Source: Herbaspirillum sp. ST 5-3
Lineage (GTDB): Bacteria; Pseudomonadota; Gammaproteobacteria; Burkholderiales; Burkholderiaceae_D
DNA: 64,000 nucleotides
Reading direction: 5' to 3'
NCBI RefSeq assembly: GCF_004804275.1
Contig: NZ_STGI01000018.1
Span: 1 to 64,000, forward strand
Position 1 is the first letter of the stretch. Each line of letters begins with the position of its first letter. The position numbers and the translations under genes were made by a program. This document shows positions 4,277 to 7,610 of the stretch, piece by piece. The notes under the pieces were generated by a model, which was given only the letters and a program-made list of their open reading frames with translations, did not search any database and was not told the origin of the DNA.

Positions 4277-5257
4277 GTGAAAGACGCTGCGACACCATCC
4301 GGGATAGAAACCGAGCTCGAAAAATATCGTCGCCTGTTCCGCTCGATGCCGGACTATGCGACCTTCTCCATTCTGAAGACGGGCGAGTTCATCGACGTCA
4401 ATCCCGGCTTCGAACGGCTGACCGGCTATCGGCGTGACGAAGTCATCGGCCGGACCTCGGCCAGCATCGATCTCTGGGTGCATCCCGAACATCGCGCGGC
4501 AATTGTCCAGCGCTTGCAGACGACGGAGACGACCTCCATCGAGACCCAGTTCCGCGACCGCTCCGGCAACATCTACGACGTGGATGCCTCCATGGCCATC
4601 TTCAACGTCAATGGCGAGGCATTGCTGGTGGCGACGGCGCGCGACGTGACCGCGCGCAAGCGCCAGGAGCAGGAGCTGGAGCAGTACCGCACGACGCTCG
4701 AAAAGCTGGTGGAACAGCGCACCATGGAGCTGGAATCGGCGATGCAAAAGCTCAAGGACCTGGCGGCGCATGATGAGCTGACGGGCGTCGGCAACCGGCG
4801 CGACCTCAACACCCATCTTGAGCAGGAATGCGCGACATTCAAGCGGCTGGCCGTGCCGTCGAGCGTCGCAGTGTTCGACCTCGACAACTTCAAGATGGTC
4901 AACGACCGTTACGGCCACGCGGCCGGCGACGAAGTGATCAAGGCATTTGCGCAGATCATCCGGCGCGAAATGCGGGTCGTCGATTATGTCGCGCGTTACG
5001 GCGGCGACGAGTTCGTGCTGCTGCTGAAAGGAATCACGGCGGAGGCGGCGCTGGTTCCGCTGGGCCGCATCCGCGAGGCGGTGCTGGCACATCCGTGGTC
5101 AGCGCTGATTCCGGATGTCGCGCTGACGACCTCGATCGGCGTGGCCTCCTTCCATCCGTCCGAATCGGCGGACGACACCTTCCGCCGCGCCGACAAGGCC
5201 TTGTATCAGGCCAAGCTGGAGGGACGCAACCGGGTTGTCATCGCAGCGGCCCCATAG
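4277..5257 (+). CDS. PAS-GGDEF diguanylate cyclase
   Basis: A cytosolic sensor that makes cyclic di-GMP from two GTP. The 326-residue protein begins with a PAS domain (about residues 12-130, 'LFRSMPDYATFSILKTGEF', 'GFERLTGYRRDEVIG'). A coiled coil (about 130-165, rich in Glu, Gln and Arg) leads into a GGDEF domain starting at 'HDELTGVGNRRDL'. The active site GGDEF is intact ('RYGGDEFVLLL') and an RxxD inhibitory site (RVVD) lies five residues before it, so product inhibition is likely. There are no membrane segments. The start is a GTG at 4277 preceded by AGGGAAAAC. The signal sensed by the PAS domain is unknown. Confidence 0.9.
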   Translation: MKDAATPSGIETELEKYRRLFRSMPDYATFSILKTGEFIDVNPGFERLTGYRRDEVIGRTSASIDLWVHPEHRAAIVQRLQTTETTSIETQFRDRSGNIYDVDASMAIFNVNGEALLVATARDVTARKRQEQELEQYRTTLEKLVEQRTMELESAMQKLKDLAAHDELTGVGNRRDLNTHLEQECATFKRLAVPSSVAVFDLDNFKMVNDRYGHAAGDEVIKAFAQIIRREMRVVDYVARYGGDEFVLLLKGITAEAALVPLGRIREAVLAHPWSALIPDVALTTSIGVASFHPSESADDTFRRADKALYQAKLEGRNRVVIAAAP

Positions 5258-5261
5258 AGCG

Positions 5262-5376
5262 CCTATCAAAATGCTACTGCGCAGCCCGATCCTGAACCTG
5301 CGATGCTCACCGTACATCACGTACGGCTGCGCTTCTCGATTCAGGCTAGGGCTGCTCGCTACGCATTTTGAAAGGC
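5262..5376. repeat. Long imperfect palindrome (repeat family B, copy 1)
   Basis: Bases from GCCTATCAAAATGC on the left pair with GCATTTTGAAAGGC on the right, with further matching blocks inward (GCAGCCC/GGGCTGC, CCTGAA/TTCAGG) and a centre of CCGTAC/GTACGG around ATCAC. It fills the gap between the convergent GGDEF gene and the peptide operon and may work as a two-way terminator. A diverged relative is at 56654-56752. Confidence 0.7.
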
Positions 5377-5410
5377 ACTCTTGGCAAGCGCGGCGAGTGC
5401 TCATTCGCAC

Positions 5411-5593
5411 TTAGCTGCGCTCGACGGATTTCCTGTCCGATGCAGACGGCTGCGGGCGCAGCGCAGCCATCACCACCAGGCGTATGAGTTCCCTGTTCGT
5501 CTCCGCGTCCTCCCGGCGGGGATGACGCGGCAGCAGGCCTGCCTCGATCGCTTTCTTGATGGCCGCCTGCAGCATTTCATCAGTGAGGTTCAT
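5411..5593 (-). CDS. Small hypothetical protein, last gene of the GG-peptide operon
   Basis: A 60-residue protein: an amphipathic helix (NLTDEMLQAAIKKAIEAGLL), a basic loop (PRHPRREDAETNREL) and a second helix (IRLVVMAALRP), with a polar tail. I do not recognise the family. The ATG at 5593 is chosen because the composition becomes protein-like there; the frame extends upstream, but that part is Ser/Arg-rich shadow. It starts 31 bases after the stop of the upstream peptide gene and is probably co-transcribed with it. Its composition suggests a helical DNA- or protein-binding accessory such as a regulator or immunity factor, but this is only a guess. Confidence 0.5.
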   Translation of the reverse strand: MNLTDEMLQAAIKKAIEAGLLPRHPRREDAETNRELIRLVVMAALRPQPSASDRKSVERS

Positions 5594-5624
5594 GGCGTAC
5601 CTCGTCCTGGAACGGTTGCTATGC

Positions 5625-5888
5625 TCAGAAGCTCGCGTTGGCGTTCGCAAACTGCGTCGGGCTGACATCGAGCTTGAGCGGGCCGAAGCCGGCACCGATC
5701 ACGCCAACGTTGTTCAGCGCGTTGACGTTGATGTTCTGCAGCTGGACGATGTTCTGGTTCACGCCGACGTTGACGTTGGCTACCGGGCCGAGCCCGGCGA
5801 GCCAGGAATTGCCGCCGCGTACGGATGACATGCTCTTGCGGTCGAGTTCCCTGGTCTGGTCGAGGTCGTGAATCGTGATGTGCGACAT
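5625..5888 (-). CDS. Double-glycine leader peptide A
   Basis: An 87-residue precursor. Residues 1-26 form a leader, 'HDLDQTRELDRKSMSSVRGG', ending in Gly25-Gly26, the pattern cut by C39-type peptidases of bacteriocin and peptide ABC exporters. The predicted mature part (61 residues) is rich in Asn, Val and Gly with alternating N-x-N patterns (VANVNVGVNQN, NINVNALNNVGV). It has no cysteine and no membrane segment. A ribosome site, AAGGAGAAC, lies just before the ATG at 5888. The next gene upstream (5952-6254) shares the leader, so the two are paralogues of one family. No C39 peptidase or exporter is in the window. Function could be a bacteriocin, a signal or a secreted structural peptide. Confidence 0.7.
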   Translation of the reverse strand: MSHITIHDLDQTRELDRKSMSSVRGGNSWLAGLGPVANVNVGVNQNIVQLQNINVNALNNVGVIGAGFGPLKLDVSPTQFANANASF

Positions 5889-5951
5889 GCTGTTCTCCTT
5901 GAATGCGTTGCGAACGGGCGGAGGCATTCGGCGCCTCCGCCGCAAATTGGA

Positions 5952-6254
5952 TTAGTGGCCGAAGTTGATGGTGTTGGTGCCGGTCTGGTGCGGGTTCACG
6001 TTGGCCGTGATGTTGTCCGCGAAGGCGACGTTGTTGCCGTTGTTGACGAGCGTGTTCTGGCTCTGGCCCAGCGCTTGCGTGGCGCTGAAGTTGAAGTCGC
6101 TCTTCGAGATGTCGGTCATCGGGCCGAAGAAGGACGGCATGTAAGGCGATGCGCCGGAATATTTGCTCATGCCCGTGCCGCCATGCACGCTGGCCATGGC
6201 TTTGCGGTCGAGTTCTTCGTTGCGGACGAGGTCTTTGATGATCAAGGTTTTCAT
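5952..6254 (-). CDS. Double-glycine leader peptide B
   Basis: A 100-residue precursor, first gene of the small minus-strand operon. Its leader, 'KDLVRNEELDRKAMASVHGG', ends at Gly25-Gly26 at exactly the same position as in peptide A, sharing ELDRK-x-M-x-SV-x-GG. The predicted 74-residue mature part is rich in Asn, Thr, Ser and Gly ('NNGNNVAFADNITANVN') and has no cysteine; it differs from peptide A in sequence though similar in composition. A GGAG-type ribosome site lies just before the ATG at 6254. A sigma-54 type promoter is about 75 bases upstream. The leader implies export through a C39-peptidase ABC transporter encoded elsewhere. Confidence 0.7.
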   Translation of the reverse strand: MKTLIIKDLVRNEELDRKAMASVHGGTGMSKYSGASPYMPSFFGPMTDISKSDFNFSATQALGQSQNTLVNNGNNVAFADNITANVNPHQTGTNTINFGH

Positions 6255-6326
6255 TGCGTTTCTCCTGAAAGGAATTAAAGGATTCGGGGTTGGTGTAGCG
6301 CGTTTCCTTGCGCTTGAAGGACATAC

Positions 6327-6342
6327 AGCAGGGAGCGTGCCA
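6327..6342 (-). promoter_or_regulatory. Sigma-54 (RpoN) promoter of the GG-peptide operon
   Basis: On the minus strand the sequence is TGGCACGCTCCCTGCT, against the consensus TGGCACG-N4-TTGCW: the -24 GG and -12 GC are both present with exact spacing and there is one mismatch. It lies 73 bases upstream of the peptide B start, giving a predicted transcript start near 6315. Sigma-54 promoters need an enhancer-binding activator. Confidence 0.72.
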
Positions 6343-6423
6343 GTTGCTGCGAGCGCACCGCGAAGCGCGCGCAAGCGCTTGAAAATAAAGGAGAAATTCG
6401 GATCAGGCCGGCACGGAAGCGGC

Positions 6424-6452
6424 GCGATGCTTGACATGCGGACAAGCATCGC
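6424..6452. promoter_or_regulatory. Long inverted repeat, possible activator binding site
   Basis: A perfect 10-bp inverted repeat, GCGATGCTTG (6424-6433) and CAAGCATCGC (6443-6452), separated by nine bases. It lies about 85-110 bases upstream of the sigma-54 promoter of the peptide operon, a typical place for an enhancer site. The rest of the 6255-6620 gap shows no gene. Confidence 0.5.
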
Positions 6453-6546
6453 TGATGGGGCGGGGCCAACACATTGGGACGCACTGTTCGTTTTGGTGCA
6501 ACAGCTGGTGACGCGTGGGATGGCACGAGGGGGTGGGCGAGCGGAA

Positions 6547-6565
6547 GCGGGTGGCTAGCACCCGC
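6547..6565 (-). terminator. Possible terminator stem-loop after the 2-hydroxyacid dehydrogenase gene
   Basis: A 7-bp perfect stem, GCGGGTG/CACCCGC, with a five-base loop, 56 bases past the stop of the minus-strand dehydrogenase gene. There is no T-run, so intrinsic termination is uncertain. Confidence 0.3.
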
Positions 6566-6620
6566 TACGGCCTTGTCCGTTTGATCATGACGACGCGATG
6601 CGCCGCCTGCGTGTGTGGCC

Positions 6621-7610
6621 TCAGGCTTTCGCGGCCCCGCATTCCGGATTCAGCAGATTGGCCGGGTGGCCGCCGGTGAGCGCGGCAATCAGATTGTTCG
6701 CCGCAGTGTTCGCCATCGCGCGCCGCGTCGGTTCGGATGCGCTGGCGATGTGCGGCGTCAGCACCACGTTCGACAGGCCGAGGAAATCCGGATTGAGTTT
6801 CGGTTCGTTTTCGAACACGTCCAGGCCCGCCGCCGCGATCTTTCCCGATCGCAGCGCCGCGATCAATGCCACATCGTCAACAATGCCGCCGCGCGCAATG
6901 TTCACCAGCGTGGCGGTCGGTTTCATCAGCGCCAGCTCGGCGGCGGCGATCGTGTGATGCGAGGCCGCGGAGTAGGGCAGGACCAGAATCACGTGATCGG
7001 CATTGCGCAGCAGATCTTCCTTGCCGACATAGCGCGCATGGTTGGCGGCGCGTTCCAGGTCTTCGCTCAGGCGCGAACGGTTGTGATAGATCACCTGCAT
7101 GCCGAAGCCGGTCGAGCGGCGTGCAATCGCCTGCCCGATGCGGCCCATGCCGATGATGCCGAGCGTGGCGCCATGCACATCCGCGCCGAGGAAGGCGTCG
7201 TAACGCCATTTCTCCCATTTCCCCGCGCGCAGCCAGTGCTCCGACTCGGTGATGCGGCGCGCGGTTGCCATCAGCAGCGCCCAGCCGAAATCGGCGGTAG
7301 TTTCATTGAGCACGTCGGGCGTGTTGGTCACCATGATGCCGGCCTTCGTCGCCGCATCGAGATCGATGTTGTTGTAGCCGACCGCCATGTTGCAGATCGC
7401 CTTGAGCTTCGGGCAGGCTGCGATGGTTTGCGCCGAGACGCGCTCGCTCGGCGTGGTGTAGACGCCGTCCTTGTCGCGCATTTTCTGCGCCAGCTCCTGC
7501 TCGGAAAAGATGCGGTCTTCCTGATTCGATTCGATGTCGAAATAGTGCGACAGGCGCTCCAGTACGTCGGGAAAGACGGCGCGGGTGACGAGGATGCTGG
7601 GTTTGGTCAT
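6621..7610 (-). CDS. D-2-hydroxyacid dehydrogenase (glyoxylate/hydroxypyruvate reductase type)
   Basis: A 329-residue cytosolic NAD(P)H-dependent reductase of the D-isomer-specific 2-hydroxyacid dehydrogenase family. Such enzymes usually reduce glyoxylate to glycolate or hydroxypyruvate to D-glycerate. The substrate loop 'NMAVGYNNID' is at about 74-83. The Rossmann motif 'GIIGMGRIGQA' is at 151-161, and the catalytic Arg240 ('NIARGG'), Glu269 ('FENEP') and His287 ('PHIASAS') are all present. The length fits the glyoxylate reductase subgroup. The start is the ATG at 7610; the longer upstream frame is low-complexity. It is a single-gene unit, separated from the chemoreceptor gene by a palindromic repeat. 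Confidence 0.85.
   Translation of the reverse strand: MTKPSILVTRAVFPDVLERLSHYFDIESNQEDRIFSEQELAQKMRDKDGVYTTPSERVSAQTIAACPKLKAICNMAVGYNNIDLDAATKAGIMVTNTPDVLNETTADFGWALLMATARRITESEHWLRAGKWEKWRYDAFLGADVHGATLGIIGMGRIGQAIARRSTGFGMQVIYHNRSRLSEDLERAANHARYVGKEDLLRNADHVILVLPYSAASHHTIAAAELALMKPTATLVNIARGGIVDDVALIAALRSGKIAAAGLDVFENEPKLNPDFLGLSNVVLTPHIASASEPTRRAMANTAANNLIAALTGGHPANLLNPECGAAKA

Follow-up and report, generated by a model that had tools for sequence, protein, structure and literature searches.

Two described systems are among the closest to the locus analyzed here. According to the accessible parts of two papers (PMC4997328, PMC9981879), the secreted GG-motif proteins EbfG1-4 of Synechococcus elongatus are needed for biofilm, EbfG1-3 formed amyloid in a heterologous assay, and the C39 peptidase transporter PteB is involved in EbfG release. 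The second system is HetC of Nostoc PCC 7120, which combines an N-terminal cNMP-binding domain with a C39 peptidase and ABC parts. Its substrate was given as unknown in 2024, and the accessible part of that account places neither a GG peptide gene nor a fusion protein gene nearby (PMC10986499).

The window, by which we mean the whole stretch of 64,000 nucleotides that was analyzed, carries two small genes for peptides with double-glycine (GG) leaders. These genes, a third small ORF and the predicted upstream elements are as follows:

6485..6503, minus strand: the farther of two enhancer-like repeats, TGTTGC-N7-CGAACA, agreeing with the consensus at 11 of 12 positions and lying 161 bp upstream of the -24 element (repeat scoring).
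6453..6471, minus strand: the nearer enhancer-like inverted repeat, TGTTGG-N7-CCATCA, agreeing with the consensus at 12 of 12 positions and lying 129 bp upstream of the -24 element (repeat scoring).
6328..6342, minus strand: predicted sigma-54 (-24/-12) promoter TGGCACGCTCCCTGC; the 100-aa peptide has its ATG 73 bp downstream (promoter scoring).
5952..6254, minus strand: class A peptide of 100 aa, with its leader at 6177-6254 and a mature part of 74 aa at 5955-6176 (ORF listing, homologues, leader profile E 1.4e-14).
5625..5888, minus strand: class B peptide of 87 aa, with its leader at 5811-5888 and a mature part of 61 aa at 5628-5810 (ORF listing, homologues, leader profile E 1.9e-14).
5411..5593, minus strand: ORF of 60 aa downstream of the peptide pair (ORF listing, homologue search).

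An earlier sequence-only reading of this locus had described two GG-leader peptides with a common 26-residue leader ending at the same Gly-Gly, and the ORFs bear this out. The leaders of the 100-aa and 87-aa peptides are identical at 14 of 26 residues (54%), and cleavage is expected after the GG at residue 26. The mature parts had been called Asn-rich and cysteine-free. Both were indeed found to lack Cys, and N+Q make up 20% of the class A and 26% of the class B mature part, levels seen in 0.6% and 0% of 318 other gene calls, respectively. The net charge of the two cargoes is -1 and 0. A search of 100 relatives found each peptide in 17 genomes (union 18, of which 15 belong to one genus), and dN was lower than dS in all eight orthologue pairs, one of them near neutral (dN 0.149, dS 0.164). 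Because of these relatives and dN/dS comparisons, the ORFs are judged not to be chance ORFs and to encode genuine GG leader peptides.

No Pfam or NCBIfam model matched either window peptide above cut-off. The best relevant family match was Bacteriocin_IIc, in the leader region of the class B peptide (E 0.02, 15.3 bits against a cut-off of 27.1). Neither the window peptides nor the sets of 24 and 14 homologues had an amyloid-repeat Pfam model among their matches, and no solved structure matched the peptides. A viral origin was considered for the 100-aa peptide, the one peptide searched against viral contigs, and was rejected as these contigs contained no relative. We recognized no published description of the peptides in a literature search that had most subscription journals outside its range.

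The leader profile identified 15 leader peptides in the genome that contains the window, all at E 1.5e-8 or better, with nothing further up to E 1. They fall into six groups: the window pair, three peptides on contig C3, a single one on contig C4, and three groups of three on contig C23, of which two lie near 454-457 kb and the third near 29 kb. Classes A and B are represented in this genome by 12 copies. We grouped the 277 distinct peptides from the fetched loci into six cargo classes by our own rules, using motifs after the GG: 116 belong to class A, 62 to B, 49 to C, 16 to D, 13 to E and 4 to F, while 17 were unclassified, most of them resembling class A or B. The conservation of the leader in relatives, for which the sequence-only reading had proposed to look, was found in both class A and class B homologues. 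G25 and G26 were invariant in 14 class B and 24 class A homologues, likewise I6 and L15, this invariance being partly by construction as a leader pattern helped select the homologues. In class D, GG is replaced by GA or GS in some relatives. The small cargo of class F differs from that of the other classes; it includes the stretch VYVDGVLVNS (L048:7736-7942) and is closely alike in all four class F sequences.

A scan of named genomes with two conserved class B stretches returned 57 loci, from Noviherbaspirillum, Paraburkholderia, Caballeronia, Burkholderia, Cupriavidus, Paucimonas and Aromatoleum as well as some isolates and bins. The class A profile matched just 3 of 300 genomes of the order and 2 of 299 of the phylum, the window's own genome counted in each, so the family is patchy in its distribution as judged by profile matches.

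The mature parts of the two peptides had been read as different, which holds in part only: they follow a common register, Q-x3-Q-x-Q-N-x2-V-N-x2-N-N. We compared class profiles of the mature parts only with hhalign, using 30 column shuffles per class pair as control. The A-B comparison scored 24.8 (probability 56%) against a best shuffle of 13.9, A-D 26.0 (64%) against 14.8, A-E 45.4 (96%) against 15.6, and B-D 30.0 (83%) against 18.4. The scores for B-E and D-E were inside the shuffle range, and class C, whose cargo is basic, was unrelated to the other classes in this comparison. The similarity of the cores is moderate (probability 56-96%) and non-uniform across classes.

The sequence-only reading had also proposed a three-gene operon. 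All three ORFs are on the minus strand, but homologues of the 60-aa ORF, found in 13 of 60 genomes with the window's own counted, sit elsewhere: by coordinates, only the copy in genome G001 adjoins a peptide pair. We therefore rejected this ORF as a member of the system and left it out; it probably represents an unrelated small protein family. Between this ORF and a gene at 4277-5257, which is PAS/GGDEF-like by eye, lies an inverted repeat (5241-5396) with 34-nt arms that are 74% complementary and 88 nt apart; a 60-base stretch of it occurs a single time in the window. A 450-aa ORF at 1427-2779 resembles, by eye, a group II intron-type reverse transcriptase.

No maturation or export gene had been noticed near the peptides, and this was confirmed: the window gave no exporter, PpiC or kinase match and one generic sigma-54-activator match, and all C39 domains of the genome are on other contigs. 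PF03412 detected four of these domains, three above cut-off, and only one of the four lies in a long frame (1048 aa). This is the C39-peptidase ABC exporter that had been suggested as a thing to look for elsewhere in the genome:

C23:411684-414794 (L049:8185-11298): cNMP-C39-ABC exporter of 1037 aa (Pfam scan, orthologue search).

Its Pfam domains are PF00027 (twice), PF03412, PF00664 (ABC_membrane) and PF00005 (ABC_tran). Full-length orthologues with 78-100% identity were found in 18 of the 100 relatives, which are exactly the union of the peptide carriers; with 15 of the 18 in one genus, this co-occurrence does not represent 18 independent events. In the other 82 there was no full-length orthologue among the matches listed; the remaining exporter matches listed have at most 44% identity and start at residue 287 or later, leaving the cNMP domains uncovered. 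The exporter reading in G001 has three in-frame stops. Neither a fusion partner nor an outer-membrane partner of the exporter was recognized among the genes covered here. Among 12 genomes chosen outside Noviherbaspirillum, all of them peptide-bearing and with no peptide-free controls included, each has one exporter orthologue (73-82% identity), with PpiC and sigma-54-activator genes beside it in all 12. The exporter operon also encodes a PpiC-type protein, just before the exporter, and a sigma-54 activator; in the window's own genome the activator and exporter genes have 4 bp in common. The C39 motif QAEEMDCGAAC, with downstream His and Asp, was present in 17 of 20 loci given (two genomes are counted twice among the 17, and the other three loci were not recognized by the motif pattern).

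Two of the other C39 matches, L002:1321-2115 and L003:1393-2166, are stand-alone peptidases. They are less likely to be the processing enzymes, since their N-termini are signal-like by eye and they have no ABC part. L002:1321-2115 adjoins a 339-aa protein of the Pfam family Phenol_MetA_deg, a set that we take to be reminiscent of Fap. The fourth match, L004, was below cut-off. Comparison between genomes supports, at the level of sequence, the reading of the window peptides as secreted GG-leader substrates of a peptidase-containing ABC transporter (PCAT). The idea of a secreted pair with unlike cargo was too narrow: the window holds 2 of 15 leaders, and the cargoes share a core.

We then consider how the peptide genes may be regulated. 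Sigma-54 promoters have a -24/-12 element with GG and GC at fixed spacing, and this textbook element was used to score the regions upstream of the first gene of each array. A score of at least 9 of 11 was reached by 109 of 122 distinct upstreams, where Markov shuffles expect 5.0; upstreams were made distinct by their last 120 bases only, so that close relatives count apart. Five of the 109 sites are more than 200 bp from the start, and distances in this survey were sometimes taken to an internal start (the true distance in the window is 73 bp). A stricter pattern, written after inspecting the list of 122 upstreams, matched at five places in the genome (5.8 Mb), each of them ahead of a leader peptide, against one match for the reversed control. 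On C4, where the sixth group lies, a site is recognized with the looser score, giving predicted sigma-54 promoters in six of six groups. Of 99 promoter sites across loci, which include regions fetched twice, 91 precede a peptide found by pattern, 4 precede peptides that the pattern missed, 1 is located 431 bp ahead of a peptide and 3 are unexplained. These three promoter-like sites (L066:10552, L074:10889 and L080:3788) have no recognized peptide within 560 bp downstream and are possible further members of the regulon. A sigma-70 promoter for the peptide pair was rejected, none being found in window positions 5200-6700.

Counting of dyads in the upstreams pointed to an inverted repeat. Of 75 non-redundant upstreams, 46 had at least one site of the form TGTYGN-N7-NCRWCA (shuffles averaged 0.54 and never exceeded 3), 11 had both sites, and 29 had none by this strict pattern. 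The motif was learned from the same upstreams on which it was tested; the independent part is its fixed spacing and positions. The spacing was 7 in all 57 sites even though 6 to 9 were allowed, and the repeats were located 124-128 or 157-162 bp from the -24 element. At these fixed positions in the window's own genome, the near repeat matched 10-12 of 12 positions in all six groups; the far repeat matched 10-11 of 12 in five of them and was absent on C4. The strict form fits the window group only. A related strict pattern had 42 matches in the whole genome against 15 in the reversed control, with one at a peptide group (that of the window), so the sequence of the repeat alone is not specific, and it is specific only in combination with promoter and position. 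We also considered sigma-54 control of the exporter operon itself and rejected it, as strict promoter and repeat patterns were absent upstream of PpiC in 10 loci (8 with the full 600 bp, L055 with 406 bp and L121 with 5 bp). Overall, the export and the regulation of the peptides are well supported by these sequence comparisons.

The genes around arrays elsewhere were also surveyed. A kinase-DUF4384 protein, a caspase-FGE protein and a DUF4399 protein occur together in 34 of the 57 named loci, while exporter and activator genes are found at the array in 8 of the 57. In Noviherbaspirillum, several arrays are further accompanied by a MORN-repeat kinase, a PP2C protein whose gene directly follows the peptides, an FHA-GAF-HD-GYP protein and a Cu/Zn SOD. 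Among 36 named loci outside Noviherbaspirillum (L081, which is G001, omitted), PP2C was present in 6 and FHA-HD-GYP in 3. The HD-GYP motif was found in 12 of 13 FHA proteins. At least one TM-like segment was present in 48 of 53 kinase frames; in these membrane kinases the DUF4384 or MORN part lies on the far side of such a segment from the kinase. Among the small non-leader genes that recur in 21 regions, DUF4399 has 14 members and SOD 4, and the others form groups of 2-4. The DUF4399 proteins (L064:15188-16151 and relatives) have conserved His-rich motifs and are often paired. Proteins with a caspase domain and an FGE-like part are found beside arrays (L045:14271-16403 and relatives). They are probably not formylglycine-generating enzymes, since the C-terminal motif, where it was matched in the FGE-like parts, never contained Cys (with a slightly narrower pattern, 24 of 39 matched). 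Neighbors of the kinds listed in this survey are absent around the window pair, which is a satellite.

Taken together, the reading we prefer, and hold to be somewhat more probable than its negation, is that the peptides are exported subunits, under sigma-54 control, of a surface fiber or matrix that would work in the manner of EbfG and PteB. The sigma-54 regulon would comprise six transcription groups, the window pair being one of them. The sigma-54 activator from the exporter operon would drive the -24/-12 promoter before the 100-aa peptide, and may do so by binding the inverted repeats that lie some 128 and 160 bp upstream. The 26-residue leader would be recognized, and the C39 domain of the single cNMP-C39-ABC exporter would cut after Gly-Gly before export. 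The PpiC-type protein probably holds the precursors unfolded, and the twin cNMP domains probably gate the exporter. Outside the cell, the Asn/Gln-rich mature peptides may co-assemble into a surface fiber or biofilm matrix, in which the basic class C could have an accessory role. At arrays elsewhere, the neighborhood suggests that membrane kinases, the PP2C phosphatase and the FHA-GAF-HD-GYP protein could tune production to surface conditions and c-di-GMP. We infer the role in a fiber or matrix from the composition, the shared core, the HD-GYP and kinase setting, and the analogy to EbfG1-4. A surface fiber is also the best of the options that the sequence-only reading had named.

The same exporter could instead release the peptides as secreted signals, sensed by the membrane kinases encoded around the arrays. 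Many GG peptides of other bacteria are signals, the kinase-DUF4384 genes accompany caspase-FGE and DUF4399 at most named loci, nearly all kinase frames have a TM-like segment, and the FHA-HD-GYP protein could serve as readout. However, the window cargoes are long for this role (74 and 61 aa), a single genome carries 12 copies of classes A and B, and the core is conserved between genera, whereas pheromones are strain-specific and diversifying. We regard signaling as rather unlikely. The exporter could also deliver the peptides into the periplasm only, where they would act as envelope or developmental factors, as proposed for HetC. This would fit the cNMP-C39-ABC architecture, shared with HetC, for which no fusion protein gene is placed nearby in the accessible part of its description, and a Pfam scan of 7 of the 19 exporter-locus gene calls revealed no HlyD-type fusion gene. 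Genomes of this kind often encode HlyD and TolC partners at unlinked sites, and we consider a purely periplasmic destination improbable.

Two further explanations concern the cargo itself. A GG leader and paired genes are what a two-peptide (class IIb-like) bacteriocin or a microcin set would have, and in the leader region a weak resemblance to Bacteriocin_IIc was found for 8 of 14 members of class B (the lowest E being 0.011) and to ComC for 3 of 14. The two-component bacteriocin suggested by the sequence-only reading is nevertheless disfavored by charge and copy number: the cargoes, at -1 and 0, are not cationic, and one genome has 15 leader peptides, with 12 copies of classes A and B. Furthermore, no Pfam or NCBIfam bacteriocin model scored over cut-off, no immunity-like partner was recognized among the recurrent small genes of the 21 regions (an unclustered or very small one could have escaped this comparison), and the DUF4399 and Cu/Zn SOD neighbors are, by eye, unlike immunity proteins. 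This suggestion was accordingly dropped as a likely account, and we give the bacteriocin or microcin set little chance. Least probable of all, in our judgment, are RiPP precursors whose Asn-rich core is modified before export. Pointing in that direction are the resemblance of the PpiC protein to the peptide-maturation family TIGR04500 (95.9 bits, below the cut-off of 180), the weak match of one class E and one class A relative to the TIGR04149 leader of rSAM-modified RiPPs (15.2 of 25 bits), and the FGE-like domains next to arrays. Against it, the FGE-like parts are without Cys in the matched motif, and radical SAM, lanthionine and YcaO families were absent from the part of the neighbor genes scanned by Pfam.

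The comparison places what had seemed a lone gene pair within a defined regulon, which has its own exporter and activator as well as promoter and enhancer-like sites and occurs in several Burkholderiales genera. The exporter of HetC architecture has candidate substrates here that can be named and tested, and if the surface-matrix reading is true, the HetC-type exporter gains evident candidate substrates. If the peptides build a matrix, this would be a biofilm material with up to fifteen related subunits per cell, for which we found no description. More tentatively, and at a little under even confidence, we propose a new surface-matrix system of Burkholderiales. Multi-class Asn/Gln-rich GG subunits would form one sigma-54 regulon, with the activator co-encoded with a twin-cNMP HetC-type exporter, and would be governed by receptor kinases, PP2C and FHA-gated HD-GYP proteins. 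The assembly of the coat would then be coupled to phosphorylation and cyclic-nucleotide signaling.

Compared with known systems, class II microcins and class IIb bacteriocins share the GG leader and C39-ABC export, but the cargo here is nearly uncharged, Asn/Gln-rich and multi-copy, and the genes have sigma-54 type promoters with no immunity partner recognized. The curli (CsgA) and Fap (FapC) subunits are similar in kind, being short and Asn/Gln-rich with fixed Q/N spacing. However, they have a Sec signal where the peptides here have a GG leader, and the peptides have no Pfam amyloid match and one core instead of several repeats. The exporter resembles HetC, as far as the accessible description of HetC extends, in the fusion of a cNMP domain before the C39 and ABC parts; it differs in having two cNMP domains by Pfam and in the evident candidate substrates. 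The EbfG1-4/PteB system, likened here by its partly accessible description, would be a functional analogue, with an operon of several small GG-motif peptides and a C39 transporter. It differs in belonging to another phylum, and fifteen copies and more cargo classes are found here. Kinases accompany the arrays here, whereas the word kinase is absent from the accessible part of the EbfG/PteB paper (PMC4997328).
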